From Bacteroidota bacterium (GTDB lineage: Bacteria > Bacteroidota > Bacteroidia > Chitinophagales > Chitinophagaceae), in NCBI GenBank assembly GCA_028876495.1, contig JAGWRO010000091.1, positions 62,001-126,000 on the forward strand: DNA of 64,000 nt, written 5' to 3'. The notes under the pieces were generated by a model. That model ran no database searches. It was not told the DNA's origin and saw only the letters and a list, made by a program, of their open reading frames with translations. A program made the translations under genes and the position numbers. Positions 3,699-63,520 of the stretch are shown in pieces. Position 1 is the first letter of the stretch. The number at the start of each line of letters is the position of its first letter.

Positions 3699-3757
3699 AA
3701 TAAAAATCCGCATTATTCCTGCCCGACTATATCATTCAGGCGGGTATTGCTTTACCG
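3699..3757 (+). repeat. Interspersed repeat, hairpin-containing form
   Basis: The left half AATAAAAATCC starts right after the upstream stop codon and the right half TATTGCTTTACCG ends the unit. Between them sits a stem-loop, CCTGCCCGA paired with TTCAGGCGGG (one G-U wobble, one C-A mismatch). The 13-mer ATCATTCAGGCGG recurs exactly in the copy at 6282-6340. Confidence 0.6.
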
Positions 3758-3886
3758 TAAGAATAATAAAGTCGTTTTGCCGCTTATAAAAGATTATACA
3801 AAAAATTACCGGTCTTTCCTGCTCTTTAATATCTTCGTTGCAATACATTTTAGATTACTAAGATCCTTTCATTTCAAAAATTAGTG

Positions 3887-4816
3887 ATGGCCATACTGGA
3901 ATTACAAAATCTGAAAAAATATTATGCTACTCAAAAAGCGGTAGATGATATTAGTTTTTCAATACCCGAAGGAAGCATTTTTGGTTTGCTTGGCCCGAAT
4001 GGCGCCGGCAAAACCACCTTGCTGAGGATGATTACCGGAATTTTTTATCCCGACAGCGGACATATCTTTTTTGACGGGAAAAAATTTAATCCTGTTGATG
4101 ATATTCCCAAAATCGGCTACATGCCCGAGGAAAGAGGTTTGTATAAAAAAATGAAGATCGGCGAACAAGCTTTGTATCTCGCACAGTTAAAAGGAATGAG
4201 CCGGCACGATGCCATGAAAAAAATAAAAGAATGGTTTGTGAAATTTGAAATGGAAAGTTGGTGGAACAAAAAAGTGAATGATTTGAGTAAAGGCATGGGC
4301 CAAAAACTGCAATTTGTTACCACCGTTCTTCATAATCCTAAACTCTTAATTCTTGATGAACCTTTCAGTGGTCTCGATCCTGTGAACAGCAATTTAATAA
4401 AAGACGAAATTTTTAAACTCGCGCAAAACGGCACCACCATTATCTTCAGTACGCACCGGATGGAACAGGTAGAAGAAATTTGTGGTCATATCGTTTTGGT
4501 AAATAAAGGTAAAAAGATTCTTGATGGAACAGTTAGCCAGGTTAAGAACGATTTTAAAGAACACATTTTCAAAGTAGGTTTTGATGAATTGCCTGAAAAA
4601 TTTATGAGCCATTCTTTTGAAGTGGTTGGCTCAAAAGATACTTTTTTAAATGTAAAAATTAAGGATGGAAATAAACCTGTAAATGTTTTAGAGGAATTTT
4701 TAAATCACAAGGCTTCCATCGTTTCTTTCAACGAAGTCCTGCCGTCGCTTAATGATATTTTCATAAGACAAGTGCAGGAGTTAAAGCAGGAGCCCCATAC
4801 AGAATTAACGAATTAA
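3887..4816 (+). CDS. ABC transporter ATP-binding protein (NatA/DUF4162 type)
   Basis: A 309-residue ATPase of an ABC-2 type exporter. Walker A is GLLGPNGAGKTT (about residue 35). The signature is unusual (DLSKGMGQKLQ instead of LSGGQ), Walker B is LLILDEPFSGLDP and the switch His is in STHRMEQ. The C-terminal ~85 residues match the DUF4162 extension of NatA-like ATPases. The frame opens with GTG at 3884, but the ATG one codon later gives the standard MAILELQNLKK start, so I chose 3887. The gene is followed 28 bp later by its membrane partner. Its last codons share a 17-bp word with the repeat near 21.8 kb. The exported substrate (Na+, drug or lipid) cannot be told. Confidence 0.93.
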   Translation: MAILELQNLKKYYATQKAVDDISFSIPEGSIFGLLGPNGAGKTTLLRMITGIFYPDSGHIFFDGKKFNPVDDIPKIGYMPEERGLYKKMKIGEQALYLAQLKGMSRHDAMKKIKEWFVKFEMESWWNKKVNDLSKGMGQKLQFVTTVLHNPKLLILDEPFSGLDPVNSNLIKDEIFKLAQNGTTIIFSTHRMEQVEEICGHIVLVNKGKKILDGTVSQVKNDFKEHIFKVGFDELPEKFMSHSFEVVGSKDTFLNVKIKDGNKPVNVLEEFLNHKASIVSFNEVLPSLNDIFIRQVQELKQEPHTELTN

Positions 4817-4844
4817 CCAATAAACTAATTAACAACGATTCACA

Positions 4845-6158
4845 ATGAATAAAATCTGGCTGGTAATTAAAAGAGAATATTCAACGAGAGTAAGAAACAG
4901 GACTTTTATTCTCTCCACCATTTTACTTCCTTTATTTTTTATAGGATTTATTTTCGCATCCGCCTATTTTTCAGCCACCAGTACTGAAAAGCAAAAGGTA
5001 GCTGTATCTGACAGCAACGGTATTTTTAGAAATAGTTTTCAAAGCAGCGATTTAATCACGTATGAATTTCCGCCTGATGTAAATGCTGATAATTTCAAAG
5101 AGAAAGGGTATTCTGCTTTTTTAAAAATTCCGGATGATTACTCTTCAGGCAAAGATTCCATCGCTTTAATTTCAACCAAACAGTTAGGCTTAGACGCAGA
5201 AGGTAAAATTAAAGATCAAATTAATGCCGCCATCAGAAACCAGGCTTTTTTAAGAAATAATATTGACCGAAAAATTCTCGATTCGATCAATAATATTGAT
5301 GAAGACAGGATGTATAATTTTAGAACGATCGTAAAACAAGGAACTAAAACAGAAAAATCTAACGCAGCGCTTTCTTATGGAATAGGCTACGGAAGCGGGT
5401 TTCTGATATATATCACTTTATTTATTTACGGAGCCGCGGTAATGCGTGGCGTAATGGAAGAAAAAATGAACCGCATTGCAGAAGTGATCATCAGTTCAGT
5501 AAGGCCATTTCAATTAATGGTAGGAAAAATTCTGGGAATTGCTGCAGTCGGGCTTACACAACTATTGATCTGGATTGTATTAATCGTTCTTTTATCTTCT
5601 GTTTCTACTTCGTTTTTTTCTGCTGATGCATTGCATCATGCACAAACAATGAACTCTACCATGGGAGCTGCGGGTAACAGTTCGGCAGCAGCTAATTTTT
5701 TAAATGCCCGCGACACTTTTTTATCCGCTAACTGGGGATTAATCATTCCATGTTTCCTGTTTTATTTTATCGGCGGATATTTATTTTATGCCGCATTATT
5801 TGCGGCGGTAGGAAGTGTGGTAAATGAAGATCCGCAGGAAGCGCAAGCATTAATGTTACCGATAACGATGCCGATAATCCTGTCGTTTGTTATTATGGCA
5901 ACTGCTGTCGGAAAACCCGATGCCCCCATTTCTGTTTGGGGAAGTATGATTCCATTTTCGTCGCCTATCGTAATGATGGCGCGCATTCCATCAGGAAATG
6001 TTCCGGGTTGGCAGATAATTGTTTCGATGTTATCGCTTGTCGCGGGCTTTATTCTAACCACCATGCTTGCGGCGAAAATTTATCGGACGGGCATTTTGTT
6101 GTATGGCAAAAAAGTAACTTTAAAAGAGATGGGGAAATGGCTTTTCAGAAAATCCTGA
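4845..6158 (+). CDS. ABC-2 type transporter permease (NatB-like)
   Basis: A 437-residue inner-membrane protein encoded right after its ATPase. One N-terminal transmembrane helix (about residues 22-44, FILSTILLPLFFIGFIFASAY) is followed by a ~150-residue extracytoplasmic domain. A cluster of about five C-terminal helices starts near residue 180 (GFLIYITLFIYGAAVMRGVMEEK). The motif VMEEKMNRIAEVIISSVRPFQLMVGK is characteristic of the NatB/YhaP permease family, which exports Na+ or other substrates. The gene ends near a hairpin-type repeat and is convergent with the histidine kinase. ATPase and permease together make a complete half-transporter pair. Confidence 0.92.
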   Translation: MNKIWLVIKREYSTRVRNRTFILSTILLPLFFIGFIFASAYFSATSTEKQKVAVSDSNGIFRNSFQSSDLITYEFPPDVNADNFKEKGYSAFLKIPDDYSSGKDSIALISTKQLGLDAEGKIKDQINAAIRNQAFLRNNIDRKILDSINNIDEDRMYNFRTIVKQGTKTEKSNAALSYGIGYGSGFLIYITLFIYGAAVMRGVMEEKMNRIAEVIISSVRPFQLMVGKILGIAAVGLTQLLIWIVLIVLLSSVSTSFFSADALHHAQTMNSTMGAAGNSSAAANFLNARDTFLSANWGLIIPCFLFYFIGGYLFYAALFAAVGSVVNEDPQEAQALMLPITMPIILSFVIMATAVGKPDAPISVWGSMIPFSSPIVMMARIPSGNVPGWQIIVSMLSLVAGFILTTMLAAKIYRTGILLYGKKVTLKEMGKWLFRKS

Positions 6159-8428: not shown

Positions 8429-8629
8429 CTTTAAATTTTTGTGCAAAATTAATTTTTTTTAGACAGATCATTTTTCAAAGCATCCCCAGTCTCCATTAAG
8501 AAAATAAGAATTAGCTTAATTTGTTGGTTTGCTATCCAAAGCCTTCTTAAAAATTCTGGTTCATTATTTTAAAGTTGATAGCTAACTTTCCAAAATAATT
8601 ATTCATTGAATTTTATTTAAAAAAAGAAA

Positions 8630-11023: not shown

Positions 11024-12019
11024 ATGAGCAGAAAAACCATTTGGACAATCACGGCGGTGTTTATTGTTTGCATTCTTTTGGCTTTTTTATTTTTGCCTCA
11101 AAAGAATAAAATAAAAAATACCGCCAAAACTTCTTTTACTGCGTCAACATTATGGAATGCTCCCGATACCAACAGCCTTCCGCATGATTCATCAGGGAAT
11201 CTGATCAGGTATGGAAGAGAATTAATAGTTCATACTGCTCGATATTTAGGTCCCAAAGGCACTGTTGCCCAAATCACAAACGGCATGAATTGTGACAATT
11301 GCCATATTGATGGTGGCACGAGAATCTTCGCCAATAATTTTTCAGTAGCGGCTGTGGGTTATCCCAATTTCACGAAAAGAAGTAACTCAATTGTAACCCT
11401 TGTGATGCGTATCAATGGTTGCTTTAAGAGGAGTTTGAACGGACAAGTGCTGGGAGATTCCGGCAGGGAAATGAAAGCAATGATCGCTTACATCAAATGG
11501 GTAGGTCAGGAAGTAAAAAAGAATACAAATATTTTTGGAACTTTCACTGAAAAAATTCCTTATTTAAACAGGGCAGCAGATACAGCCAAAGGTAAAAATA
11601 TCTTTCTGGCCCAATGCTCTACCTGCCATGGAGAAAATGGCGAGGGAAAATTTCTTGAAGGAGGCAAGGAATATTTGTATCCACCACTATGGGGAAAACA
11701 CAGCTTTAATGTTGGTGCAGGCCTTTACCAGCTTTCAAAATTTGCAGGCTTTATAAAAAATAACATGCCTTATGGCACCAGTTATAAAAAACCCTATTTA
11801 AGTGATGAACAGGCGTGGGATGTAGCTGCTTATATAAATTCCAGGCCAAGACCAAATTTTAAAGATTTACAGAAAGATTGGCCGGATATTTCAGGTAAAC
11901 CTGTAGATTACCCGTTCGGGCCCTACATTGATAGTTTTTCAGAAAGCCAGCACAAGTATGGGCCCTACAACCCAATTGTATCAGCCGATAAAAAACTAAG
12001 GAAATCCAATAATGAATAG
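11024..12019 (+). CDS. tsdA: TsdA-like dihaem cytochrome c (thiosulfate dehydrogenase family)
   Basis: A 331-residue protein with an N-terminal membrane anchor (residues 4-25) and two cytochrome c domains: CDNCH (residues 90-94) and CSTCH (198-202). The sequence between and after them follows TsdA closely: RINGCFKRSLNG contains the Cys (C133) that in characterised TsdA proteins is an axial haem ligand, then REMKAMIAYIKWVG, YPPLWG, GAGLYQLSKFAGFIK and the C-terminal FSESQHKYGPY. TsdA enzymes interconvert thiosulfate and tetrathionate in the periplasm. The frame opens at TTG 11012; ATG 11024 was preferred. It is probably co-transcribed with the Tat-exported DsrE-like gene. The direction of the reaction cannot be read from sequence. 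Confidence 0.87.
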   Translation: MSRKTIWTITAVFIVCILLAFLFLPQKNKIKNTAKTSFTASTLWNAPDTNSLPHDSSGNLIRYGRELIVHTARYLGPKGTVAQITNGMNCDNCHIDGGTRIFANNFSVAAVGYPNFTKRSNSIVTLVMRINGCFKRSLNGQVLGDSGREMKAMIAYIKWVGQEVKKNTNIFGTFTEKIPYLNRAADTAKGKNIFLAQCSTCHGENGEGKFLEGGKEYLYPPLWGKHSFNVGAGLYQLSKFAGFIKNNMPYGTSYKKPYLSDEQAWDVAAYINSRPRPNFKDLQKDWPDISGKPVDYPFGPYIDSFSESQHKYGPYNPIVSADKKLRKSNNE

Positions 12020-14218: not shown

Positions 14219-14473
14219 AAGAGTTTTAAGAGTGTAAATGAGGTAAAAGGAAGATGAAAGACTAATTTTAAACAAACCTAAAATTTATTAAATGACTTTT
14301 CTTCACAACATAGGCACCTTCTTCTGGAAAATATTCAAATCCATTTTTGTGAGAGAAAAAGATTGCTGCAAATAAAATTTGTTTTTTACAGTAAAACAAT
14401 AAATAAACGAATTTCTTGCTTTAAGCATTGCACTTATCCGTTTTTTTATTTGATTCTGAGAATACGCTACATT

Positions 14474-16542: not shown

Positions 16543-17466
16543 ATGAATTACACAATTAACCAACTGCGTATATTTTTAAAAATCACGGAAACACAAAGCA
16601 TAACCAAGGCTTCAGAAGAATTGCATTTGACGCAACCCGCGGTTTCTATTCAGTTAAAAAATTTGCAAGACCAGTTTGATATTCCATTAACAGAAATAGT
16701 GGGCAGAAAAATATTTATTACAGATTTTGGGAAAGAAATTGCCATTGCAGCAGAGAATATCCTGAACCAGGTTCATGCTATTAATTACAAGACCTTATCT
16801 CATAAAGGTAAACTGGCAGGACGTTTAAGAATTTCTATCGTATCCACCGGTAAATATGTGATGCCTTACTTTTTAACTGGTTTTTTAAAACAACACCAAG
16901 GGGTTGAATTGCTGCTTGATGTGACCAACAAATTAAAGGTACTGGAGAGTTTGGAAAGAAATGAGGTTGATTTTTCATTGGTATCTGTACTGCCAACAAG
17001 TTTACAAATTGAGAAAACTGAACTTATGCAAAACAAATTGTTTGTTGTGAGTGACAACAAGCAAAAATTTAAAAGCAACCGGTATGATAAAAGCATTTTC
17101 GAAAAAATTCATTTGATCTATCGCGAACAGGGGTCCGGCACACGTCAAACAATGGAAAAATTTATTCAAAAAAACAATTTACCGGTACGAAAAAAAATGG
17201 AGCTTACTTCTAATGAGGCAGTAAAGCAGGCTGTGATTGCAGGTCTTGGATGCTCTATCATGCCATTAATTGGAATTAAAAACGAATTGCAGAATGGAGA
17301 ATTGCAAATAATCCCGGTTAAAGGGTTTCCCATTAAATCAGTTTGGAATCTGATTTGGCTAAAAGGAAAAAATCATTCCCCTGTTGCAACAGCTTTTTTG
17401 AATTATATAAAGAAAGAAAAAGAAAACATCATTAAAGAAAAATTTGAGTGGTTTGAGAAATATTGA
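16543..17466 (+). CDS. LysR-family transcriptional regulator
   Basis: A 307-residue DNA-binding regulator. The winged helix-turn-helix occupies residues 1-60 (INQLRIFLKITETQSITKASEELHLTQPAVSIQLKNLQ), with the typical LysR recognition helix. The C-terminal ~220 residues form the periplasmic-binding-like effector domain (STGKYVMPYFL, EVDFSLVSVLP, REQGSGTRQTMEKF, AGLGCSIMPLIGI). The GSGTR loop resembles CysB/CbbR-like effector pockets. It is divergent from icd with 87 bp between start codons, a standard LysR arrangement, so it probably regulates icd and the two small genes behind it. The effector is not predictable. Confidence 0.92.
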   Translation: MNYTINQLRIFLKITETQSITKASEELHLTQPAVSIQLKNLQDQFDIPLTEIVGRKIFITDFGKEIAIAAENILNQVHAINYKTLSHKGKLAGRLRISIVSTGKYVMPYFLTGFLKQHQGVELLLDVTNKLKVLESLERNEVDFSLVSVLPTSLQIEKTELMQNKLFVVSDNKQKFKSNRYDKSIFEKIHLIYREQGSGTRQTMEKFIQKNNLPVRKKMELTSNEAVKQAVIAGLGCSIMPLIGIKNELQNGELQIIPVKGFPIKSVWNLIWLKGKNHSPVATAFLNYIKKEKENIIKEKFEWFEKY

Positions 17467-19432: not shown

Positions 19433-19529
19433 GTTTATTTAATTTTTTATTGAATGTCTTATCTCCAACTACAGGTCAACTGATAGGGCTAAGACAAAGG
19501 CTAACTGCAGTAAAGTAATTTTAATGTAA

Positions 19530-19561
19530 AATAAAAATACCAAATAAAAGTTGGTTTACTG
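19530..19561 (+). repeat. Interspersed repeat copy
   Basis: AATAAAAATACC joined to AAAAGTTGGTTTACTG. The right half matches the consensus fully. It lies in the 216-bp gap between the GH-A gene start and the DUF2147 stop. Confidence 0.7.
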
Positions 19562-21555: not shown

Positions 21556-21691
21556 CCTATATATTTAAAATTATTGTCTGATACATCCTATTGTATTGCT
21601 ACTCTATTTCTAAGAAATGAAATACAGTTTCGCCACTAAAGATGCGCCTTTTTTCAGTTGTCCTCAAATTAGATAATGTACAATCAAAATA

Positions 21692-21723
21692 AATAAAAAT
21701 CCTGGAAATTAGTTGGTTTACTG
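21692..21723 (+). repeat. Interspersed repeat copy (close to consensus)
   Basis: AATAAAAATCCTGG - AAATTA - GTTGGTTTACTG. It lies between the GH76-like gene start and tRNA-Arg and, with the copy at 63490, best represents the family. Confidence 0.75.
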
Positions 21724-21811: not shown

Positions 21812-21841
21812 AATAAAATTTATTGGTTAATTCGTTTACTG
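21812..21841 (+). repeat. Interspersed repeat copy next to tRNA-Arg
   Basis: AATAAAATTTATTGG - TTAATTC - GTTTACTG. Its middle (21819-21835) is the exact reverse complement of a 17-bp word at 4808-4824 that spans the ABC ATPase stop codon. Confidence 0.5.
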
Positions 21842-25316: not shown

Positions 25317-25323
25317 GAATTCT

Positions 25324-25354: not shown

Positions 25355-25380
25355 GCACCTGGTAAATGAAGACTTTGCAA

Positions 25381-25411
25381 AATAAGATTCTTCAAAATTT
25401 ATCGGTTCACT
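25381..25411 (+). repeat. Interspersed repeat copy
   Basis: AATAAGATTCTTC - AAAATTTATCG - GTTCACTG, in the same orientation as the copy at 25324, making a tandem pair between convergent genes. Confidence 0.5.
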
Positions 25412-25423
25412 GCAACACAATCT

Positions 25424-31802: not shown

Positions 31803-31835
31803 CAGTGAACCAATAAATTTAAATGATTTTTTATT
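31803..31835 (-). repeat. Interspersed repeat copy (reverse orientation)
   Basis: On the minus strand: AATAAAAAATC - ATTTAAATTTATTG - GTTCACTG. It starts 15 bp after the adaptor stop codon and before the terminator. Confidence 0.55.
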
Positions 31836-35796: not shown

Positions 35797-35810
35797 ATAA
35801 TGGAATCTTA

Positions 35811-35841
35811 AGTAAACCAACAAATATTTCACATTTTTATT
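35811..35841 (-). repeat. Interspersed repeat copy (reverse orientation)
   Basis: On the minus strand: AATAAAAATGTGAAATATTTG - TTGGTTTACT. This is a near-consensus copy, 15 bp after the acyltransferase stop codon between convergent genes. Confidence 0.7.
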
Positions 35842-35857
35842 TTCGCTTTAGCTATCT

Positions 35858-37735: not shown

Positions 37736-40700
37736 TTAATGTTGATCTTTTAAAAATTCGTGCGTGATATCATCGTACTCATACAAGTACTTGTTGGCTT
37801 TTCCGTCTTTGTCAAAAAAAGATTCCCATGTGCTTAATGGTTCCCAGATAAAAGTGCCTTTCATTTGATTTCCCGGAAGTGAAAATGCAATCCGGTTCAC
37901 CTGCCTTTTCAGTTGAGAATATTCAGCAACGATCACCGGCTTGTTATATTTTTTTTGCAACAACCTCAGGTTAGTATCTAGATCATTTAAAGTACCATGC
38001 CATTTTGGATAATAAGATTCGCCGATAGCATCAAAAGAAACACCACGGTTGATCATGTTGTCGAGAAAAAATTCAGATTCAGAATTTTGTCCGCCCAAAG
38101 CAACGTGTATCAAAGTAATAATTGAAGGATTTACTTCTTTCACTGCTGAAAGAGCCGAATTCAGAAGCGTTGCAAGGCTGTCAAGATGCTGTACATTTCC
38201 ATCAGGCCAAAGAATTCCATGATTGATCTCATTGCCTGTTTGAACCATTTCTGGTAAAGTCCCTTGTGCTTTTAAAGATGCTAAAACGCTTTTGGTATAG
38301 TCATGAACTTTTTTTGCCAGATCTTTAAAATCAAGACTTTTCCATTCTTCAGGAATGAATTGTTTTCCCGGGTCAGCCCAGGTATCACTGTAATGGAAAT
38401 CAAGTAAAAATTTCATACCGGCATTTTTAATTCGCTTTGCCATTTGCAATGTTTGTTGCAAATCACAAAAACCTTTTCCGGGTGAATAGCCACTATCGTC
38501 GGAAGGATTTACAAATAACCTGAGGCGGATGTAATTAAAGCCATGATCTTTTAAAATCTGAAGTACATCTTTTTGTTCGCCTTTGTCAGAAAATTTAATG
38601 CCTCTTGCTTCCAGTTGTGGCAAAAAAGAAATATCTGCGCCTAATATTTTTCCGGCAGGTTTTGCAGTAGAATGAATACCCAATTTTGAGAAAAGATAAG
38701 GATCATCCGCAATGCCCAAAGGTTGATCAGGCTTAACGGTTATGATGTCGGTACTTCCGTCCCACAAACCTTTTGAACTGGCCACAAACTTAATATGGCC
38801 GGGCGTTTTTCCGGCTTGTAAGATCACCTGGCACTTGCCATTAAACAAAGATCTTTGCCACTGTCCTTCCAGAATTTTATCCGGTTCATGGCTGCTTGGG
38901 TCACCATTACCTACACCTATTATTTTGGCGTCTCCTGTTATAGAAAACTGAATTAAATTATCAGCAGTCGGCACTTCGCGCCCTTGCTTATCAACCACAC
39001 TTACATTAATCACGGTCGCGTCTTTTCCATCAGCCAACATAGTAGTTTTATAAGGAGTAATTACTACTTCGGCGGGATCGCCTGTTGTTTCAACAGAAGA
39101 GACAAGCTTACGGCCATGCTTATACGCAATTGCTTCCAGTTTGCCCGGCTCATATGGAACGGTCCATTGCAAATGGCTGTTGCGCGGCATATCTTTTTTA
39201 CCAAAACTTTTACCATTCAAAAACAACTCAACATTATCTGCATTTGAATTTACCCAAACATCGATTGGCTTTCCTTCTTCTCCTTTCCAGTTCCAGTGCG
39301 GAGAAATTTGCAACACGTCTTTATCCGACCACCATGCCTGGTAATAGTAATAAACGTTTTTAGGAAAACCGCAAACATCCATCACACCAAAATGAGAACT
39401 GATGTTGGGCCATTTATAAGGAGTAGGTTCTCCTCTATAATCAAATCCTGTCCAAACAAATCCGCCCAAAAACCAGCTTTCTTCAGCAGCAGGTTTCCAC
39501 CATTGTTCAGCAGTATTTCCCCACGGTGGAGCAGTAATATCATGATCGGGTAAATAATCATGAACGGTATCTACTTTATAAATTCCTCTTGTAGTTAAAG
39601 TGCTTGCCATTTCAGTTCCCATTATAGGTTGATCCGGATGATCTTCATGATAAGGCTCAATTCCTTTGATCCTGTAATTAAATCCGCGAACAGGAATCAC
39701 CTGGTTAATTCCTTTGTAAACATTTCCCTCATCAGCAGCGTAGGTGCTGGTTCTGTAGGGATCTAATTCTTTTTGTTTATGCAATAACGAAAGAGCGATT
39801 CTCTGGCCGGTTGGTGTCGCCTGAATCCACCCTTCTTCATTGCCGATCGACCACATAAAAACAGAAGCATGATTACGATCGCGAAGTATGAGTCGTTCAA
39901 ATTGGTCCATGTATTCGGGGCTGCTGTTGAGCAACCGATTTTCATCCAGAACAATCATTCCCAAACTATCGCATGCATCCAACAACTCAGGAGTAGGGGG
40001 ATTGTGGCTGGTTCGATAGGCATTCGCGCCCATTTGTTTTAATAAACCGATGCGGTAATATTGCAGATAATCCGGCAGTGCACTTCCTACACCTGCATGA
40101 TCCTGGTGATTGCAAAAGCCTTTTATCTTTACATATTTACCATTAATGAAAAGCCCTTTCGCAGTAACATTTACATCACGAATTCCAAAACGGGTATTTA
40201 CGCTGTCAATCACTTTATTTCCTGATTTTAAAAGAGTAACCACGCGATATAAATAGGGATCTTCTATTGACCACAAATGAGGATTTGCAACATTGATACT
40301 TTGTTTCAGTACGTTTTTGCCAAAAGAGGAAATAGCAAAATTTGTTGGTTTACTGCCAGCAACTTTCTTTCCGTCTCTTGTGGTTATATACGTATAAACA
40401 TAACCGTTAGCTATGTTTGATTCTTGATTCACAACAGGAATTTCTACTGAAACAATTGCATTTTTAGCCGATTGCTTTGAATGAATGAAAAGCTTATTGG
40501 AATTGATATGAAAATTATTTGTTTTATTGAGCCATACATGCCGGTATATTCCTGCACCTTCATAAAACCAGCCTTCATATTGAGTAGCATCTACTCTTAC
40601 TACCAAAGTATTTTCCTCTCCGTATTTTATAAAATCAGAAACATCATATTCTGCACCGATATAGCCGCTTTTATTATTTCCTATAAAAAAACCATTGAGC

Positions 40701-41137: not shown

Positions 41138-41320
41138 TATCGTGGGTAGTTTTTAAATCAGAAAAGAGGCAGAACAAAAGTTTGAAATTATCAACATTGC
41201 AAATACGAAGAAGTATTAAAGTAAAATAGTTTATAAATATAATGAGAAAATAGTAATAAGGCATTGTAGCTTAAAATACTTTATTAAATGGTCAATAATA
41301 ATTTACTTTTTCTAAACAAT

Positions 41321-41351
41321 AGTAAACCGACAAATAAAGCTGATTCTTATT
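41321..41351 (-). repeat. Interspersed repeat copy (reverse orientation)
   Basis: On the minus strand: AATAAGAATCAGCTTTATTTG - TCGGTTTACT. It lies in the gap between the second SusE-like gene and the GH2-GH53 gene, just past the terminator. Confidence 0.65.
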
Positions 41352-41360
41352 CTTACATTT

Positions 41361-43443: not shown

Positions 43444-45036
43444 TTAATAGCCGGGATTTTGAACCAAATTCGGATTAGCCTGAACATCGGTAAGAGGTAA
43501 TGGATAAAGGTTGCGGTAAGATTGAACGCCTGTACCTGATTTTACACCGCCTTTCCAAGGCCATAAATAACTTGAAGACGTAAATTCGCCATATCGGATC
43601 AGGTCGGTCCTCCTGTAACCTTCCCAATACAATTCTCTTGCTCTTTCATCCAGAATAAAATTAAGAGTAAGATCGTTGGCGGTAATATCACCTGAAGTAT
43701 TGCCATAAGCTCTTTCACGAATGTTATTTATATATTTAACTGCTTGCGCTATATCTCCACTTCCACCAAGAGCTATATTTCTAAGCGTTGCTTCAGCATA
43801 ATTAAGATACATTTCAGGCAACCGGAAAATAGGCATGTCAATATCAGAAAAATCAAGACTGCTTCCATTAGCACCATCACGTGTTACATTTTTGAACTTG
43901 GTAACAGCAAAGCCATCAGTAAACGAAGTAATATCATTGATATCTATATTCTGGCCACTCGTATAAAAATCAGACCTTGAGTCTACATTTCCGGTATAAT
44001 CAGGAAAAAGATCCGGCAAATTTTTTGTAGTTCTGGCTCCGGACCATCCACCATTGATACCAAATTTGGATGGATTCATACTTCCCCCAACAGGAGCGTG
44101 AGTAAGAAATGTTGTTCCACCATAACCCTGCGTTTTCAGTCCATCATAATTAATGGTTAAAATAAATTCATTGGTGTTCAAATTATTATCTGCCAAAAAC
44201 AGCCAGTTATAATTAGATGTCAAGGTGTATCCAGCGTCGATCACCTTTTTAGAATAAGCAATTGCATCATTATAATCAGTAGTATCAGCATAAACCGGGG
44301 CATTAAGGTAAATCCTTGAAAGCAAAGCCCAATCAGCCGCCTGGTCTGCACGACCGTATTCGTTGGTCATTGGCGCTTTTAAATCAGGTTCTATTGCTTT
44401 CAGCTCAGATATTACATAGTCAAAAAGATCTTTCCGGCTAATTTGTTTTGGAATATTACCTATCTGATCTTTATCGGTTACAAATGGAGGATTACCAAAA
44501 AGGTCCATTAAAACCCAATATTGATACGCCCTTAAAAACCGGGCTTCCGCGCGATAAGTTTTGATATTATCGGCGTCACTTCCTGTTATGCCGCGCGCAG
44601 CAAGATTGGCATCTGAAGATTGCCTGATAAAGTCATTGGCAAGCGTAATTTGGTACATACTTCTATAATACAATCCTTGTGTGAACGGATTGCTGGATGA
44701 CCAGTTCATGAAATGAAAATCCTGGATACCGGCATCTCCCCAACTTATTACTGCTTCATCTGTTGATAATTCCTGAGCACACCAGTACAATCTGAAAAAA
44801 TCAGAAGTTCCGGGGTCGATACCCTGGATGTCGCCGCTTCCGGGCCCGTTATTTCCTGTTTGGGCAAAACTGCCGTAAACTTTTGCAAAAGCAAGTTTAT
44901 AACCATTGGGCGTAGAATACACTTCAGCCGCAGTAAATCCATTCGTAGGCAGGCGGTCAAGGTTTTTAGTACAGGAAACAAAAACTACCGAACTCAAAAG
45001 CGCAATGATTATTAAAAATGAGATTTTATTTTTCAT
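43444..45036 (-). CDS. susD: SusD/RagB family nutrient-binding outer-membrane lipoprotein
   Basis: A 530-residue lipoprotein with lipobox VFVSC (Cys 22). It has the SusD layout: N-terminal TKNLDRLPTNGFTAAEVYSTPNGY, tetratricopeptide-like helices (YRAEARFLRAYQYWVLMDLFGNPPFV is the signature), a variable glycan-binding middle, and a C-terminal SusD-like region (FRLPEMYLNYAEATLRN, ERARELYWEGYRRTDLIRYGEF). It forms the lid of the SusC pore and captures oligosaccharides. It is located 18 bp after susC. Confidence 0.95.
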   Translation of the reverse strand: MKNKISFLIIIALLSSVVFVSCTKNLDRLPTNGFTAAEVYSTPNGYKLAFAKVYGSFAQTGNNGPGSGDIQGIDPGTSDFFRLYWCAQELSTDEAVISWGDAGIQDFHFMNWSSSNPFTQGLYYRSMYQITLANDFIRQSSDANLAARGITGSDADNIKTYRAEARFLRAYQYWVLMDLFGNPPFVTDKDQIGNIPKQISRKDLFDYVISELKAIEPDLKAPMTNEYGRADQAADWALLSRIYLNAPVYADTTDYNDAIAYSKKVIDAGYTLTSNYNWLFLADNNLNTNEFILTINYDGLKTQGYGGTTFLTHAPVGGSMNPSKFGINGGWSGARTTKNLPDLFPDYTGNVDSRSDFYTSGQNIDINDITSFTDGFAVTKFKNVTRDGANGSSLDFSDIDMPIFRLPEMYLNYAEATLRNIALGGSGDIAQAVKYINNIRERAYGNTSGDITANDLTLNFILDERARELYWEGYRRTDLIRYGEFTSSSYLWPWKGGVKSGTGVQSYRNLYPLPLTDVQANPNLVQNPGY

Positions 45037-48137: not shown

Positions 48138-48386
48138 ATTTATAACAAAAACTATTATCCCAAAAAAAAATTTCATCTTTATTCTCACAATTTGTCGGAA
48201 TCAAATGAAGTAAATCCGGATGGCCGTTATCACAATCTAAATTCTACACCAAGCTTTATTCGCATCTAAAGACAATCAATTTTTATAAATTGCTGCACTT
48301 AAAAAAAATAGTTTTCTTTTTTACTTTCCATGTGCATATAATCTTATATCCTATTTTTACTTGTCTCTTATATTTAGCTTTTTCAA

Positions 48387-48417
48387 AATAAAAATCTTTT
48401 TTATTTGTTTGTTTACT
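48387..48417 (+). repeat. Interspersed repeat copy
   Basis: AATAAAAATC - TTTTTTATTTGTTTG - TTTACT. It lies 12 bp from the 3' end of the minus-strand regulator gene. Confidence 0.6.
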
Positions 48418-48428
48418 CTAACAACTTT

Positions 48429-52351: not shown

Positions 52352-52447
52352 ACCCTGGCAATAAATTATTGTGTAAAATAAACACATTATTTTTAAACCC
52401 TCCTCCCTTTTTAAAAATATTTAAAAAAAAAGAAACAGATTGTTGAA

Positions 52448-52479
52448 AATAAAAACCTGAACTAATTGTTAGTTTACTG
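52448..52479 (+). repeat. Interspersed repeat copy in a divergent promoter region
   Basis: AATAAAAACCTGAACTAATTG - TTAGTTTACTG. It lies between the starts of the divergent GH13 and ligA genes, so the family is not confined to gene 3' ends. Confidence 0.65.
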
Positions 52480-55947: not shown

Positions 55948-55976
55948 CCAAATTTCTTAAGCACAGCAAACAAACA

Positions 55977-56013
55977 AAAAAACCATTTTTTTATTTGTCA
56001 AAATGGGGTTTTT
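55977..56013. terminator. Possible terminator between convergent genes
   Basis: AAAACCATTTT and AAAATGGGGTTTTT can pair with a small bulge around an AT-rich loop, and T/A-runs lie on both sides. It lies 30 bp after the DUF2461 stop and before the 3' end of the PDZ gene. Confidence 0.35.
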
Positions 56014-57116: not shown

Positions 57117-60050
57117 TTACAAAAGTGACTTTACACTTTCAATCACTTGATTCAATTTGTATATATCCTGTCCGCCTGCTGAAGCTAATGTTTTTTGACC
57201 GCCACCACCGCCTTTTATCAGCGGGGCAACCAGCTCTTTAATTATTTTAACTGCATCTGTTTTTTTGGAAGAAATAAAATTTTCATCCGCTGCCACCACC
57301 ACATTTGCCTTGTCATCTATAGTTGCACACAAGACAATTAAATAGTTTTCCAGATCTTCTTTTAAAAGGGGAATTAATTTTTTTAAAGCATCTGCATTTG
57401 TAACCGGCACCATCGCTCCTATAAATTGTATTCCATTTATTAAAACAGAATTCTTCCTTAATTGTTCGTTTACTGTGCCAAGGATTTGAAGTTCCAGTTG
57501 ATCTACCTGCTTATTTAATTTTTCTTTTTCCAGCAACAAATTTTCCAATGCTTTCCGGCTGTCTTTAGGATTTTTTAATTGCTCTTTTAAAGAATTCAAT
57601 TCTTCCAATTCTTGATTGATAAAATCTTCAGCAGCTTTTCCGCTAACCGCTTCAACACGACGCAAACCTGCACCAACCGCAGTTTCTGTAGTTATTTTGA
57701 AGATTCCTAACTCGCCGGTATTTCCTACATGCGTGCCGCCACAAAGTTCAATTGAATAATTTGAATCCATCGTAACCAATCTAACCATATCTCCATACTT
57801 TTCTCCAAAAAGCGCCATGGCTCCGGTTTTCATTGCTTCTTCCTTTGGCATTTGCCTGATCACCACAGGAATATTTTCTCTTATTTTTTCATTGACGATT
57901 GCTTCTACTTTTTCGATTTCTTCTTTTGTCATTTTGCTGAAATGAGAAAAATCAAAACGCAGGTAATCTTCATTTACCAAACTTCCCTTTTGCTGAACGT
58001 GTGTTCCCAAAACTTTCCTTAATGCAGCGTGCATTAAATGTGTGGCACTGTGATGCACTGCCGTTTTATTTCGTTTTTCCACATCAACTTTTGCAACAAC
58101 TTTCGACGAAATATCTGAAGGAAGTTTTTCGGTAAAATGTAAAATCAGTTCGTTTTCTTTTTTGGTATTTATAACCGGAATTCTTTCCTCTTCAAAAATC
58201 AATTCTCCTGTATCCCCCACCTGGCCGCCACTTTCAGCATAAAAAGGCGTTGTATTTAAAACCAGTTGAAATACCTCTTTCCCTTTGGTTTTGGTTTTCC
58301 GGTATCTTACAACTTTACTTTCCGTCTCAAGTAGTTGATATCCAACAAAACCAGATCCAGCATTTTCATTAATTATAATCCAATCTTCGGTATCAACAAT
58401 TGATGCTGAACGAGAACGCTTTTTTTGTTGCTGAAGTTCTATGTTAAATCCTTCTTCATCAACCTTTGCGTATAATTCCTTAGCCATTAATTTGGTTAAA
58501 TCAATAGGAAAGCCATAAGTATCCTGCAATTTAAAAGCTAGTGGACCACTTATTAATTTTGAAAATTTAGCTTCATTAGCGAGAAGTTCATATATTTTTT
58601 CAACCTGTGGATTATTAGCATAGATATCCCTTATATTTTGAAATGATTCTAGAGCTTTCTGAATAGCATCGAAGCTCTTTTTAAATTCAAGGGTTTTATT
58701 AAGATGCTTTTGGTACTGCTCAAATCTTTTATGAATTTCCAAAATCGGCTGAAAACTATTTTGTAAATCAATTATTTGTTGTAATGAACTTTTTGATTCA
58801 ATTATAGGGCTTATTGCATTTTTATAAGTTTCAGCTAAACTTCCCGTAGCTCGAAGGATATTGTTTTCTAATACTTCATCAAAAAGTTTAGTACCACTAC
58901 CAAGAGTCTTTAAAAAAGATTCTTCTTCCTCTTTTATCACTTTTGCAACAAAATCCTTTTGCTTTTCCAAATCAGGAAAAACATTTTTAAATTGATTGGC
59001 GATCAATGGAACCAATTTATAAAGCAATGGCTCTTTTACATCAAGATAAGAAAAATAATATCTAACTGCTCTTCTTAAAATTCTTCTTATAACATAGCCT
59101 GCGCCAGTGTTTGAAGGCAACTGGCCATCAGCGATAGGAAAAGCAATTGCACGGATGTGATCAGCTATTACACGAAAAGCAATCGCCTCTTTTGAATCAG
59201 AGTAATCATAATTTTTTCCGGCTATTTTTTCAATTTCAGCAATTGTTCCCGTAAAAATATCGGTATCGTAATTGCTTTTTTTATTTTGTAAAACGCGTAC
59301 CAATCTTTCAAAACCCATTCCAGTGTCAACATGTTTTGCCGGCAACAATTCTAATGATCCGTCTTTTTTGCGATTGTATTGAATGAAAACCACATTCCAT
59401 ATTTCAATTACCTGCGGATTGTCTTTATTGATCAGTTCTTTACCTGGAATCATTTTTTTTTCTTCTTCACTTCTGCAATCCACATGAATTTCAGTAGAAG
59501 GGCCACATGGACCGGTATCGCCCATTTCCCAAAAATTATCTTTTTTATTTCCAAAAATAATTTTGTCTTCAGCAACCCACTTTTTCCAAAAGTTCAATGA
59601 TTCATCATCGCGTGGTAAACCTTCCTTTTCATCACCTTCAAAAACAGAAACATATAAATTGCTTTCGTTAATCTTATAAATTTTGGTAAGTAATTCCCAT
59701 GCCCAGGCAATAGCATTTTCTTTAAAATAGGGTGGCGGATCACCTACGGCATTTCCAAAACTCCAGTTGCCCAGCATTTCAAACATCGTGTGATGATACG
59801 TATCAACACCCACTTCTTCAAGGTCATTATGTTTACCACTTACGCGCAAACATTTTTGGGTATCGGCAACACGCGAATAAGGCGCCGGTTTGTTACCCAA
59901 AAAAAATTCTTTAAACTGGTTCATTCCGGCATTGGTAAAAAGCAATGTCGGGTCGTTTTTAATTACGATAGGCGCAGATGGAACAATTTGGTGCCCTTTG
60001 TTTTTAAAAAAATCAAGAAAATGTTGTCTTATTTCTGCACTGTTCATCAT
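57117..60050 (-). CDS. alaS: Alanyl-tRNA synthetase with a ~100-residue insertion
   Basis: A 977-residue class II synthetase that charges tRNA-Ala and edits Ser/Gly errors. The catalytic domain starts EIRQHFLDFFKNKGHQIVPSAP and includes TNAGMNQFKEFFLG, GDTGPCGPSTEIH and GAGYVIRRILRRAVR. The editing domain has the zinc ligands HHSATHLMHAALR and CGGTH; the C-Ala domain ends GGGGGQKTLASAGGQDIYKL. Most bacterial AlaRS are ~870-880 residues. The extra length is a helical insertion at residues ~397-499 (bases 58554-58862) between KLFDEVLEN and ISGPLAFKLQDTYGFP, the hinge just before the middle domain. The frame is intact, so the enzyme should be functional. Confidence 0.96.
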   Translation of the reverse strand: MMNSAEIRQHFLDFFKNKGHQIVPSAPIVIKNDPTLLFTNAGMNQFKEFFLGNKPAPYSRVADTQKCLRVSGKHNDLEEVGVDTYHHTMFEMLGNWSFGNAVGDPPPYFKENAIAWAWELLTKIYKINESNLYVSVFEGDEKEGLPRDDESLNFWKKWVAEDKIIFGNKKDNFWEMGDTGPCGPSTEIHVDCRSEEEKKMIPGKELINKDNPQVIEIWNVVFIQYNRKKDGSLELLPAKHVDTGMGFERLVRVLQNKKSNYDTDIFTGTIAEIEKIAGKNYDYSDSKEAIAFRVIADHIRAIAFPIADGQLPSNTGAGYVIRRILRRAVRYYFSYLDVKEPLLYKLVPLIANQFKNVFPDLEKQKDFVAKVIKEEEESFLKTLGSGTKLFDEVLENNILRATGSLAETYKNAISPIIESKSSLQQIIDLQNSFQPILEIHKRFEQYQKHLNKTLEFKKSFDAIQKALESFQNIRDIYANNPQVEKIYELLANEAKFSKLISGPLAFKLQDTYGFPIDLTKLMAKELYAKVDEEGFNIELQQQKKRSRSASIVDTEDWIIINENAGSGFVGYQLLETESKVVRYRKTKTKGKEVFQLVLNTTPFYAESGGQVGDTGELIFEEERIPVINTKKENELILHFTEKLPSDISSKVVAKVDVEKRNKTAVHHSATHLMHAALRKVLGTHVQQKGSLVNEDYLRFDFSHFSKMTKEEIEKVEAIVNEKIRENIPVVIRQMPKEEAMKTGAMALFGEKYGDMVRLVTMDSNYSIELCGGTHVGNTGELGIFKITTETAVGAGLRRVEAVSGKAAEDFINQELEELNSLKEQLKNPKDSRKALENLLLEKEKLNKQVDQLELQILGTVNEQLRKNSVLINGIQFIGAMVPVTNADALKKLIPLLKEDLENYLIVLCATIDDKANVVVAADENFISSKKTDAVKIIKELVAPLIKGGGGGQKTLASAGGQDIYKLNQVIESVKSLL

Positions 60051-61854: not shown

Positions 61855-62100
61855 TTAATTTTTGTTATTCAAAAAAACAAAAGGCTTTAAGATTTTATTC
61901 CCTAAAGTTTCACGTACTAATTTTTTGTTCGAAGAAATTTTATATTTATTTATATTAATAACCTCGTAAACTGTTACCAGGTTATCAATTTTTTCAACAT
62001 AAAAAAGAAGTTCATGAAGTAGTTCTACTTCATGCTCAATTGCTTGGGGATTAGATTTTTCTTTGAACAATACCAAAAGATCTCTATTGAATTTGTCCAT
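61855..62100 (-). CDS. Small hypothetical protein
   Basis: An 81-residue soluble protein starting at ATG 62100 (MDKFNRDLLVLFKEKSNPQAIEHEVELLHELLFYVEKI). It is helical, with an acidic first half and a basic second half (INKYKISSNKKLVRETLGNKILKPFVFLNNKN). There is no signal peptide, no transmembrane segment and no recognised domain. Its 3' end lies 6 bp from the stop codon of the oxidoreductase gene on the other strand, and it is 12 bp downstream of the tiny lipoprotein gene. Confidence 0.55.
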   Translation of the reverse strand: MDKFNRDLLVLFKEKSNPQAIEHEVELLHELLFYVEKIDNLVTVYEVININKYKISSNKKLVRETLGNKILKPFVFLNNKN

Positions 62101-62112
62101 TTTGATTGGTTT

Positions 62113-62238
62113 TTAATAGCCTACCATGTTACTATTACATTCACATCCTGTTTTGCTCTTGCGTGAAGCACTGCAACTCATTGCAACAACGGAGAGAATA
62201 ACTAATAATATTAACAAGGCGCGGTTTACGTTTTTCAT
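62113..62238 (-). CDS. Tiny 41-residue lipoprotein
   Basis: A short ORF from ATG 62238. The signal peptide is MKNVNRALLILLVILSVVAM and the lipobox ends at Cys22 (AMSC). The mature part is only about 20 residues: SASRKSK, then the Cys-rich TGCECNS, ending in NMVGY. The two Cys in GCEC plus the lipidated Cys make it unusual. Small lipoproteins with a basic spacer, a GC-rich Cys pair and a VGY-type end occur in Bacteroidota genomes, so this looks real. Function is unknown. It is co-directional with the 81-residue gene. Confidence 0.65.
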   Translation of the reverse strand: MKNVNRALLILLVILSVVAMSCSASRKSKTGCECNSNMVGY

Positions 62239-62361
62239 TAAAATATTTCGATTATTAATTATTAATAAATGCCAATGAGGTATTAGCAATAATAACTCAA
62301 TCCATTTAAAAATTCATAACACCAAATTAAACTATTTTCACCAATAAATATTGTAATTTTT

Positions 62362-63486
62362 TTGAAAAAAAGTAAAAAATTTACTATTAAAAAGCAAAAT
62401 CCGCGTGTTTTGGTGGCACCGCTCGATTGGGGTTTAGGGCACTCAACCCGTTGTATTCCAATTATTAAAGAGCTGATTTTACTGGGTTGCGACGTCTATA
62501 TTGTAGCTGATAAAAAAACTTTTTCTCTCCTAAAAAAAGAGTTCCCTGGCACAGTATTTTTACGGTACAAAGGTTATGAAATTGAGTACAGTCGTCAAAA
62601 AAGCTTCTTTTCGCTTAAACTAATTTTGCAAGCCCCAAAAATTATTCTTAGAATTATTCAGGAAAAAAGATGGTTAAAAAAGGTGATTAAAAGATATTCA
62701 ATTGACGCAGTAATATCTGATAACCGCTTTGGAATGTATCATAAAAATTTTCCTTCAATTTACATAACGCACCAACTTTTTATTAAGACAGGCAATAAAT
62801 TTAGTGAAGGAATTGCACAAAAAATCCATTATCATTTTATAAAAAAATATTCTTGCTGCTGGGTGCCCGATGAGGGCAAAGATGGACTCGCCGGTGAACT
62901 TTCTCATCCCAAAAAAATGCCCGGAAATGTTATTTATATAGGGCCCGTTTCACGGTTTGACAAAATCCCCGATATGGAAAAGGTTTATGATTTGCTCATT
63001 ATCATTTCAGGACCTGAACCTCAGCGAACTATTTTTGAAAACAACATTCTTGAGCAATTAAAAACCGTTGACGGAAATATTTATTTGATTCGCGGTCTTC
63101 CTGAAGAAAGTGAGCCACCGGAAAATTTTAAAAACATAACCATAAAAAATCACCTGCCGGCAAATGAATTAAATGAAGTTTTTGCCATGTCGAAAGTGGT
63201 GATATGCAGAAGTGGTTACACTTCGGTTATGGATTTGACAGCTTTACAAAAAAAAGCCATTTTAATTCCAACTCCCGGTCAAACCGAACAGGAATATCTT
63301 GCAAAATACTTGATGGAGAAGGGATTCTTCTTTTCAGAAAAACAAAACAATTTCTCAATTAAACAATCCTTGAAAAAGGCAGCCACTTTTCATTTTAAAA
63401 AATTAGATTTTCCGAAAGGGGAATATAAAAAAACAGTGGCTGAGTTTGTAAACTCCTTAAAATTCAAGAATGATCCAACTCATTGA
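62362..63486 (+). CDS. GT28/MurG-like glycosyltransferase
   Basis: A 374-residue cytosolic or membrane-associated glycosyltransferase of GT-B fold. N-terminal acceptor domain: RVLVAPLDWGLGHSTRCIPIIKEL (the glycine-rich loop), AVISDNRFGMYHKNFPSIYITHQLF. C-terminal nucleotide-sugar domain: LIIISGPEPQRTIFE, FAMSKVVICRSGYTSVMDLTALQKKAILIPTPGQTEQEYLAKYL, which matches the UDP-GlcNAc site of MurG-like enzymes. No upstream ATG exists; the start is TTG 62362, giving a Lys-rich N-terminus. The acceptor is unknown. Similar proteins are annotated as UDP-N-acetylglucosamine transferase-like. Confidence 0.85.
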   Translation: MKKSKKFTIKKQNPRVLVAPLDWGLGHSTRCIPIIKELILLGCDVYIVADKKTFSLLKKEFPGTVFLRYKGYEIEYSRQKSFFSLKLILQAPKIILRIIQEKRWLKKVIKRYSIDAVISDNRFGMYHKNFPSIYITHQLFIKTGNKFSEGIAQKIHYHFIKKYSCCWVPDEGKDGLAGELSHPKKMPGNVIYIGPVSRFDKIPDMEKVYDLLIIISGPEPQRTIFENNILEQLKTVDGNIYLIRGLPEESEPPENFKNITIKNHLPANELNEVFAMSKVVICRSGYTSVMDLTALQKKAILIPTPGQTEQEYLAKYLMEKGFFFSEKQNNFSIKQSLKKAATFHFKKLDFPKGEYKKTVAEFVNSLKFKNDPTH

Positions 63487-63489
63487 GGA

Positions 63490-63520
63490 AATAAAAATCC
63501 GGGATATTAGTTGGTTTACT
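63490..63520 (+). repeat. Interspersed repeat copy (close to consensus)
   Basis: AATAAAAATCCGGG - ATATTAG - TTGGTTTACT. It begins three bases after the glycosyltransferase stop codon and, with the copy at 21692, best represents the family. Confidence 0.75.

Follow-up and report, generated by a model that had tools for sequence, protein, structure and literature searches.

The 64-kb stretch of Chitinophagaceae DNA analysed here (the window) carries a short interspersed sequence in many copies, which raises the question of what this sequence is and how its copies arose and are maintained.

A fixed 33-bp motif dispersed through the genome

A motif model was trained on 455 kb of the genome, the window included. 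The model describes a non-palindromic motif of fixed length (33 bp, AAWTARAAATC-N5-TATTTRTTNGTTTACTG) carrying approximately 27 bits per site. The dispersed motif with left and right halves that had been reported in a preliminary description of the window proved to be real: 505 matches with up to three mismatches were found genome-wide (269 forward and 236 reverse) vs none for the reversed pattern, and 118 sites of at least 15 bits were found in 454.7 kb vs none in the reversed control. The gap of 5-10 bases proposed there between the halves was incorrect, since the variable-sequence spacer is fixed at 5 bp. Read from the core end, the motif is CAGTAAAC-N-AAYAAATA-N5-GATTTYTAWTT, a layout made of a core (GTTTACTG) and two AT tracts with centres about one helical turn apart. 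Its three conserved blocks contribute 8.9, 7.0, and 10.5 bits, with weak positions between them. The middle tract flips blockwise, being TTT in 72 and AAA in 23 of the 118 sites vs expected values of 42 and 2.4, as if the shape of the tract mattered.

The density of the motif, about one per 3.9 kb (0.26 per kb), is close to the earlier estimate of one per ~4 kb and extrapolates to approximately 1,200 copies per genome. Marking 1,200 sites would take about 13 bits; the excess of information in the motif suggests a process that keeps driving sites to consensus, not binding alone. In total, 124 matches were listed, and the six with scores of 13-15 bits were excluded from later counts as probable chance matches (1378, 21516, 38113, and 63538 in the window; C24:219134 and C24:252616). 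At position 21516 the motif is absent in the related genome G018, and at 38113 it is absent in G003, G019, and G009.

The window contains 18 sites of at least 15 bits (Table 1). Eleven of them, with scores of 26.7-39.3 bits, were among the 15 copies located previously; the remaining four of those 15 do not belong to the family, the best scores within 40 bp being −0.8, −0.7, and −6.7 for the supposed hairpin-bearing forms at 3699, 6282, and 20105, and 3.5 for the supposed plus-strand copy at 21812. Seven sites had been overlooked (8502, 11109, 14389, 40323, 43917, 55964, and 57443), and four of these (11109, 40323, 43917, and 57443) are inside genes.

Table 1. Motif sites of at least 15 bits in the window, with their counterparts in related genomes
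Position	Strand	Location	Bits	Related genomes
8502..8534	+	Divergent intergenic	33.0	
11109..11141	+	Inside gene with cytochrome c domains	21.2	Same 33-mer in G018
14389..14421	-	Convergent intergenic	25.8	G018 counterpart, 23.0 bits
18275..18307	+	Convergent intergenic; TAAAA-type AT tract	28.7	
19529..19561	+	Tandem intergenic; TAAAA type	35.1	
21691..21723	+	Adjoining tRNA gene	39.3	G018 counterpart, 41.6 bits
25323..25355	+	Convergent intergenic	32.0	No aligned G018 counterpart
25380..25412	+	Convergent intergenic	29.0	Aligned G018 motif copy
31803..31835	-	Convergent intergenic	26.7	G018 motif, one indel; not seen in G001, G016, G007, G012 (poor alignments)
35810..35842	-	Convergent intergenic	32.1	
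40323..40355	+	Inside GH2/GH53 glycosidase gene, antisense	31.4	G003, G019, G009, G015 (48-70% protein identity) motif-free, ungapped
41320..41352	-	Tandem intergenic	32.5	
43917..43949	-	Inside SusD-family gene	25.8	No homologue among genomes compared
48386..48418	+	Tandem intergenic	34.3	
52447..52479	+	Divergent region, alpha-amylase-family gene / NAD-dependent DNA ligase gene	30.9	
55964..55996	-	Convergent intergenic	31.4	G018 motif-like, one indel
57443..57475	+	Inside alanyl-tRNA synthetase gene, antisense, codons 859-870	35.5	Identical in G018; 31.8 bits in G011; 14 aligned motif-poor relatives all ungapped, motif-free
63489..63521	+	Convergent intergenic	38.6	

Placement of the motif relative to genes

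The sites cluster in intergenic space near stop codons. The earlier statement that nearly all copies are intergenic was correct for 89 of the 118 sites (~75%), and the other 29 lie in coding sequence, several of them mid-gene. Intergenic density was highest between convergent genes (3.31 per kb) and lowest in divergent, promoter-containing regions (0.96 per kb), and 36 of the 48 sites between tandem genes were nearer the stop codon. Orientation in tandem pairs showed no bias, with 21 sites along the genes and 27 opposed, counts that include the six matches of 13-15 bits because they were tallied on all 124. Spacing along 331 kb was random (CV 0.93 vs 0.98), which rules out evenly spaced sites. 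Measured against local GC skew, the sites were unevenly divided between the strands (45 vs 73, p 0.013), a result that varied with the length over which skew was averaged. At the 15-bit threshold, the 455 kb contained three close pairs (within 150 bp), all same-strand; the looser pattern gave a few overlapping inverted matches, such as C24:86912/86921. The 14-kb neighbourhood of the ComEC gene holds four motif copies of 24-32 bits. Viral contigs contained no exact match to the motif pattern, and the only RNA families detected in the window at gathering cut-offs were a cobalamin riboswitch and tRNA.

Origin of the coding sites and conservation among related genomes

Eleven of the 29 coding sites were examined, those on C24 and on C80:1-20000 being excluded from the comparison; the site at 43917 had no homologue, that at 11109 had one in G018 only, and nine had homologues in motif-poor genus mates. 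For these nine sites, neither a gap nor a motif of at least 15 bits was found in the relative in any of 38 comparisons. A single site supplies 14 of these comparisons, which thus lack full independence, and one comparison probably involves a paralogue (40323 in G016, 23.7% protein identity). In motif-rich mates, the motif was kept in 10 of 13 comparisons; the site C80:37874 was not kept in two of these mates. Lower scores in relatives are partly built in because the scoring matrix was trained on this genome, whereas the absence of gaps is not. These data therefore indicate that the tested coding sites originated by base substitution and not by insertion. Intergenic alignments with the motif-poor mates were of too low quality to reveal empty sites. 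Furthermore, target-site duplication was at chance level and the flanks of the copies were unrelated, with 3 and 3 alike pairs vs 2 in the control, of 6,903 pairs. Common flanks were shared by one pair (C24:194032 and 203088), and for one small subgroup of the TAAAA type, nearly identical copies are present in G018.

Comparison with G018 revealed that the contact blocks are conserved between the two species. At ten intergenic sites, the blocks were 90.5% identical, the spacer 70%, and the flanks 83% (Fisher p 0.005 for blocks vs flanks and 0.0003 for blocks vs spacer), and at nine coding sites the values were 94.7% for blocks and 84% for flanks (Fisher p 2e-5). The earlier suggestion that a host factor binds these sites survives this analysis: the tested coding sites arose by substitution, and the blocks are retained as the intergenic spacer drifts.

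All five genomes with a high copy number group in a single clade, with the low-copy G001 as its sister (FastTree support 0.999), in a tree of a single gene (AlaS) with partial sequences for some genomes. Outside this clade, the motif is near absent in close genus mates. When samples of 28-200 kb from seven motif-poor mates were scanned for over-represented 10-mers, no comparable alternative dialect was evident by eye in these small samples. Low-copy matches in non-clade genomes, with a common GAAT...TCAAC...GTTTACTG pattern, were set aside, as they sit within a separate attC-like element. Two pattern-perfect copies were found in G374, from a different genus, and may mark transferred DNA. On one G001 contig, two genes resembling Y1 transposases lie close to two copies of the motif, one with a full score and the other partial (12.5 bits).

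Alternative explanations of the motif

A remnant of a REP- or MITE-type mobile repeat, one of the classes suggested in the preliminary description, would account for copies that are numerous, dispersed, and patchy within the genus, and the TAAAA-type subgroup, the C24 pair with alike flanks, and the window copy at 25323, missing from G018, would also fit. On the contrary, no insertion was seen at the nine coding sites, target-site duplication was absent, flanks were no more alike than in the control, and the blocks are constant while the spacer is randomised. A MITE was rejected on this lack of an insertion footprint at the coding sites tested, and a REP/RAYT element on the lack of a palindrome or hairpin in the motif model. 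A RAYT parent, whose search had been recommended, was not supported either, as Y1 (RAYT-type) transposase matches occur in 20 of 20 genus genomes whatever the copy number; the genome itself has two weak ones, one broken by stops. We consider this explanation the least probable of all. A terminator or RNA-level 3′-end element has a very low probability, somewhat above that of a mobile remnant: enrichment directly downstream of stop codons favours it, but the sites are randomly oriented to the upstream gene in tandem pairs and 29 of them are in coding DNA. The lack of a fixed orientation rejects an intrinsic terminator, in agreement with the earlier view that the copies are not simple terminators. 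The specific, non-palindromic, AT-rich, and mainly intergenic motif might also suggest a transcription-factor or promoter-type regulatory site. This is disfavoured because of the positions of the sites, which are sparsest in divergent and densest in convergent regions, lie mostly nearer the stop codon in tandem pairs, and fall in several cases mid-gene; we regard it as highly improbable.

An intracellular site for a chromosome-organising or nucleoid protein, present genome-wide and kept by per-site selection, would be consistent with dispersed, conserved, substitution-derived sites, with three helically phased blocks, and with the weak strand imbalance measured against GC skew. Against it stand the random spacing, an information content far above the 13 bits required, a skew bias that shifts with the averaging length, and a high copy number limited to one clade, close genus mates being almost free of the motif. 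Chromosome-organising sites such as MatP/matS, Noc, and FtsK/KOPS are shorter or regional, and this explanation is judged unlikely. A different DNA-transfer or packaging signal (conjugation, gene-transfer agent, or vesicle/nanotube loading), favouring export or packaging over import, would leave an evolutionary trace identical to that of uptake tags, and the G374 copies might mark transferred DNA. We know of no such signal with ~1,000 chromosomal copies, and this possibility is considered improbable.

Possible role in DNA uptake

With belief and doubt about equally weighted, we propose that the motif is a putative recognition tag in double-stranded DNA, working like the DNA uptake sequences (DUS) and uptake signal sequences (USS). 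We further propose, with doubt slightly the heavier, that Bacteroidota have here a first tag for DNA self-recognition (uptake): it would have evolved independently in one Chitinophagaceae clade and would consist of three modules in 33 bp, read across three turns of the helix. A cell-surface receptor would favour DNA carrying the motif, so that tagged kin DNA would enter the cell and recombine more frequently; chance near-matches would in this way be pushed to consensus over time, and the tag would build up genome-wide. The motif would thus be read by a protein, the process would be uptake and transformation, and its abundance would stem from uptake bias and not from selection at individual sites.

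Several features of DUS and USS are shared by the motif: over-representation on both strands, sites gained and kept by substitution in homologous DNA (at the nine coding sites), and a lineage-specific sequence matching phylogeny, according to the single-gene AlaS tree. The permissive positions of the sites near stop codons, their neutral orientation, the conservation of the blocks, and the absence of exact matches from viral contigs also count for an uptake tag. On the other hand, the motif exceeds known tags in length and is more sparsely distributed, the GC-skew strand excess is not expected of such a tag, and the absence of C80:37874 from two motif-rich mates, together with the copy at 25323 that has no G018 counterpart, counts against it.

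ComEC, the inner-membrane DNA channel, was found in 18 of 20 genus genomes, this one included. Its presence does not track the motif: it occurs in motif-poor mates, and no match was found in the motif-rich, 72%-complete G014. By eye, the protein list of its 14-kb neighbourhood showed no obvious competence gene. The Riemerella-type receptor domain DUF5689, part of a protein without which Riemerella is not transformed according to the available text, was not found in this genome and was found in only one of 20 genus genomes; no candidate receptor emerged. A literature search, judged by titles and abstract openings, gave no report of natural transformation in Chitinophagaceae.

If the uptake reading is true, the motif would be a third, unrelated occurrence of uptake tags, in another phylum, implying that the strategy evolves repeatedly, and its receptor would lie outside both families now known. 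The motif-rich clade and its near-motif-free sister G001 would offer a natural 'before and after' pair for studying the origin of the tag and for identifying the receptor gene. It would also suggest that natural transformation shapes Bacteroidota genomes, a phylum to which a different machinery for uptake, not yet fully characterised, has been ascribed as a proposal (PMC8459023, available text). Should the tag serve a nucleoid protein instead, the motif would remain a genome-wide site unusually rich in information and of no recognised kind.

Comparison with known systems

REP/RAYT elements and MITEs resemble the motif in being short, dispersed, and mostly extragenic; unlike them, the motif lacks a palindrome, an insertion footprint at coding sites, a target duplication, and a co-varying transposase. 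The putative k-mer tags of Riemerella (Flavobacteriaceae) come from the same phylum as the motif host. R. columbina reportedly prefers its own DNA, and its over-represented k-mers have been tabulated (PMC7965970); those shown in the available text of that source are simple and A-rich, their function is left open there, and no structured 33-bp motif appears in that text.

The DUS dialects of Neisseriaceae are, like the motif, clade-specific, congruent with phylogeny, and located at permissive intergenic positions, and foreign ('peregrine') copies have been reported for them (PMC3630211, available text). The motif differs from DUS in sequence and length. According to the same text, DUS often form inverted pairs at terminators, whereas the three close pairs of the motif are same-strand. 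The letters of the core are present in Neisseria oligonucleotides, and one core-letter string occurs once in a Staphylococcus paper (PMC3486894).

The USS of Pasteurellaceae, such as Haemophilus influenzae, share with the motif a core with AT tracts and a copy number in excess of 1,000; the AT tracts of the H. influenzae USS are rigid, with a narrow minor groove, and their shape has been linked to uptake (PMC7811141, available text). The same source gives USS a density of ~1 per kb, vs 0.26 per kb for the motif, and known uptake tags measure 9-12 nt (PMC12616744). In comparison with USS, the motif has an unrelated core, spans 33 bp with its ~27 bits, and belongs to a host in Bacteroidota.

Definition and abundance of the dispersed motif

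Iteration of a weight matrix from aligned copies over 454,732 bases of the Chitinophagaceae (Bacteroidota) genome to which the window belongs (contig C24 complete, positions 1-60000 of contig C80, and the window) resolved one non-palindromic 33-bp motif, AAWTARAAATC-N5-TATTTRTTNGTTTACTG, which reads CAGTAAACNAAYAAATA-N5-GATTTYTAWTT on the reverse strand. The information content of the motif is about 27.4 bits, three blocks contributing 8.9, 7.0, and 10.5 bits and the 5-bp spacer next to nothing (0.5 bits), and every position beyond motif positions 0-32 carries at most 0.5 bit in 52 copies. At a threshold of at least 15 bits, 118 sites were found in these bases and none in a control read backwards; a cut at 10 bits added 15 sites (133 in all) while the control climbed to 13, indicating that the family is cleanly apart from the background. 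Extrapolation to the 4.70-Mb genome gives about 1,200 sites.

Direct genome-wide counts gave 505 matches to a strict pattern (at most three mismatches) and 455 to a looser one (at most two), against zero in the control of each search. Eleven of the 15 two-part copies listed in the preliminary description belong to the motif family, and those at positions 3699, 6282, 20105, and 21812 of the window do not; 7 of the 18 sites of at least 15 bits in the window were missing from the list.

Placement of the sites in the genome

With genes called by a simple custom hexamer caller (coding fraction 0.87-0.89), 89 of the 118 sites were intergenic, and site density per kb was highest in convergent regions (3.31), followed by tandem (1.38) and divergent ones (0.96), and lowest in coding DNA (0.073). 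The upstream stop was nearer than the downstream start for 36 of 48 sites in tandem regions (p 0.0007). As to orientation relative to genes, a question raised in the preliminary description, the motif showed no preference: in tandem regions 21 sites ran with the genes and 27 against them, within genes the numbers were 14 and 19, and plus and minus sites numbered 15 and 15 in convergent and 9 and 4 in divergent regions, these counts taking in six hits of 13-15 bits besides the sites of at least 15 bits. Spacing along C24 was random (CV 0.93, random mean 0.98). A weak excess of sites on the C-rich strand (73 vs 45, p 0.013; C24, C80:1-60000, and the window, with 5-kb half windows) changed with other window sizes.

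Origin of the sites

The decisive evidence came from coding sites in the window and in C80:20001-60000, for which proteins were aligned to those of genus mates and the underlying DNA was read at the site. For nine sites, motif-poor mates supplied homologues; this allowed 38 comparisons, of which a single site accounted for 14. The relative was gapped within 10 residues of the site in none of the 38, which argues that no insertion took place in the genome under study at these nine coding sites; its protein was the shorter partner in four comparisons. None of the 38 stretches reached 15 bits in the motif-poor relatives, and of 13 comparisons with motif-rich mates, covering 9 sites, 10 showed a retained motif of at least 15 bits. 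The clearest case is site 57443, within the alanyl-tRNA synthetase gene: the same 33-mer occurs in the motif-rich mate G018 and a 31.8-bit copy in another (G011), and 14 motif-poor mates align there without gaps and lack the motif. The ungapped, motif-free state of the relatives, together with retention in motif-rich mates, indicates that the tested coding sites arose through base substitutions in pre-existing sequence and were then retained.

Insertion as the origin of the coding sites tested is contradicted by the ungapped relatives, and two other tests agree: when site flanks were compared with each other, 3 and 3 of 6,903 pairs were at least 70% identical (2 in a control 200 bp away), and short duplications flanking the sites were at chance level. 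Among the aligned window and C80 sites, identity to G018 was 0.905 in the blocks, 0.832 in the flanks, and 0.70 in the spacer at 10 intergenic sites; at 9 coding sites it was 0.947 in the blocks and 0.844 in the flanks, with the spacer equally conserved (0.93).

Several observations run against substitution followed by retention. The motif at C80:37874 (21.5 bits) is retained neither in G018 nor in G011; at C80:31418, G011 is unaligned under the site owing to a 7-residue gap in the protein of the genome under study; the counterpart of window site 25323 was not found in G018; and several intergenic G018 alignments have gaps of 1-4 bp within the site. Unlike the rest of the family, one small TAAAA-type subgroup (AAATAAAAATACCAAATAAAAGTTGG...) has a conserved spacer and near-identical copies in G018, some sharing the left flank, so that some local copying may occur.

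Distribution among genomes

Any motif match was found in 11 of 59 genomes, that of the window counted, against 3 hits overall in the reversed control. Counts were high in five, namely that genome (505) and its mates G018 (429), G011 (358), G005 (175), and G014 (121), these four mates being 72-87% complete. Low counts were obtained for G001 (11), G003 (10), G013 (5), G017 (2), G007 (1), and G016 (1), and neither the remaining 9 genus mates nor any of the 39 genomes from outside the genus had a match. Sequence samples of 28-200 kb from each of seven mates with low or zero counts yielded 1 site of at least 15 bits in total, vs 1 in the control. Of 394 genomes drawn from the family, a set without the four high-copy mates, 19 contained a match; apart from the genome under study (455), none exceeded 9, and the control total was 2 hits. 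No exact match was found in viral contigs.

In a FastTree phylogeny of AlaS, for which G005 contributed 177 residues only and several others were partial, the five high-copy genomes grouped as a single clade (support 0.999) whose sister was G001. Only 9-11 matches to the pattern occur in this sister genome, and several score high (up to 38.6 bits; loci L376-L383 and L323); they may mark either the beginning or the end of motif accumulation.

Among the matches listed in a scan of named genomes, those outside the motif-rich clade comprised a single stretch in Flavobacterium frigidimaris, one in a record as long as a G001 contig, and two in a record as long as a contig of G374, a genome of another genus. 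G374 itself carries two pattern-perfect copies 1.08 kb apart with a right flank in common, and had no further match in the looser-pattern family search; they possibly reflect DNA transfer from the motif-rich clade. Three copies of 25-35 bits lie on a 7.7-kb contig (C252; locus L385) of G269, from a different genus, and would represent either transfer or bin contamination.

Associated and neighboring elements

Low-copy hits with a common fixed center in several motif-poor genomes sit within a separate element of about 170-190 bp whose inverted ends read TTGGCRATRGCTGGG; in the one copy that was folded, the bottom strand formed a single long hairpin. On contig C29 of G013, three copies are repeated in the same orientation, in the manner of integron attC sites, and this region looks like an integron cassette array. 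A motif match of 30-35 bits is present in 9 of 10 attC-like copies examined, at loci picked for that match, and in 2 of the 3 copies of the G013 array, either by coincidence or as a putative uptake tag carried on cassettes.

Two further features were observed. Short, mainly intergenic arrays of the palindromes ATTAGCTAAT / GCTAATTAGC are strongly over-represented, with a count of 22 over both strands vs 0.8 expected, and a cobalamin riboswitch adjoins a gene with TonB-dependent receptor domains.

Coordinates of the features described in the text
Feature	Location	Strand	Remarks
TAAAA-type motif copies	window:19529; L329:10902; L338:2429; L339:1904 and 2600		
Motif copy, G374:C13	L375:7352-7384		41.2 bits
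Motif copy, G374:C13	L375:8432-8464		38.9 bits
attC-like copies, G013:C29	L388:15730-15910, 16747-16930, 19013-19195		same orientation, ~1 and 2.3 kb apart
attC-like element, further loci	L390, L391, L392, L393, L394, L395, L396		
Palindrome arrays	window:7429-7442; C24:19423, 21416, 90524, 304961, 327870		L066-L082
Cobalamin riboswitch	window:24576-24807	-	92.8 bits
Gene with TonB-dependent receptor domains	window:22538-24475		

Architecture and proposed mechanism

About 13 bits are enough to mark 1,200 places in this genome. In the theory of uptake sequences, biased uptake and recombination continually drive sites to the consensus. The approximately 27 bits of the motif, set against the 13 needed, point to such a drive by biased uptake rather than to a binding site maintained by selection only. 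The core, the AT tract, and a second AT tract have their centers about 10.5-11.5 bp apart, and the middle tract switches blockwise between TTT (72 of 118 sites) and AAA (23 of 118), where independence expects 42 and 2.4, as if groove shape, not bases, were being read.

Under the proposed mechanism, about 1,000 copies would have arisen by substitution, on both strands and blind to gene orientation, within one clade, and biased uptake of tagged DNA followed by recombination would have pushed the sites toward the consensus. On the basis of this architecture, the excess information, the substitution origin, and the clade restriction, we give about an even chance to the motif being a tag similar to the DNA uptake sequences of Neisseriaceae (DUS) and Pasteurellaceae (USS); it appears to behave like an uptake tag, with putative membership of that class. 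No uptake sequence was reported for Chitinophagaceae in the titles and abstract openings searched, which covered few subscription papers.

Comparison with known systems

ComEC was present in 18 of 20 genus genomes, and its presence does not track the motif. In Riemerella, also of the Bacteroidota, transformation depends on ComEC, DprA, ComF, and RecA together with four unfamiliar proteins, and pilus homologues were not found (PMC8459023); DUF5689, a domain of one of these proteins, was not found in the genome under study. For R. columbina, a preference for own DNA was reported, along with candidate k-mers as putative tags (PMC7965970). The AT tracts of the motif, with their block-switching middle tract, may be comparable to those of the Haemophilus influenzae USS, whose rigidity and narrow minor groove have been described and whose shape is tied to uptake (PMC7811141). 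With the DUS of Neisseriaceae, for which permissive intergenic placement and dialects by clade are described (PMC3630211), the motif shares its intergenic placement and its restriction to one clade.
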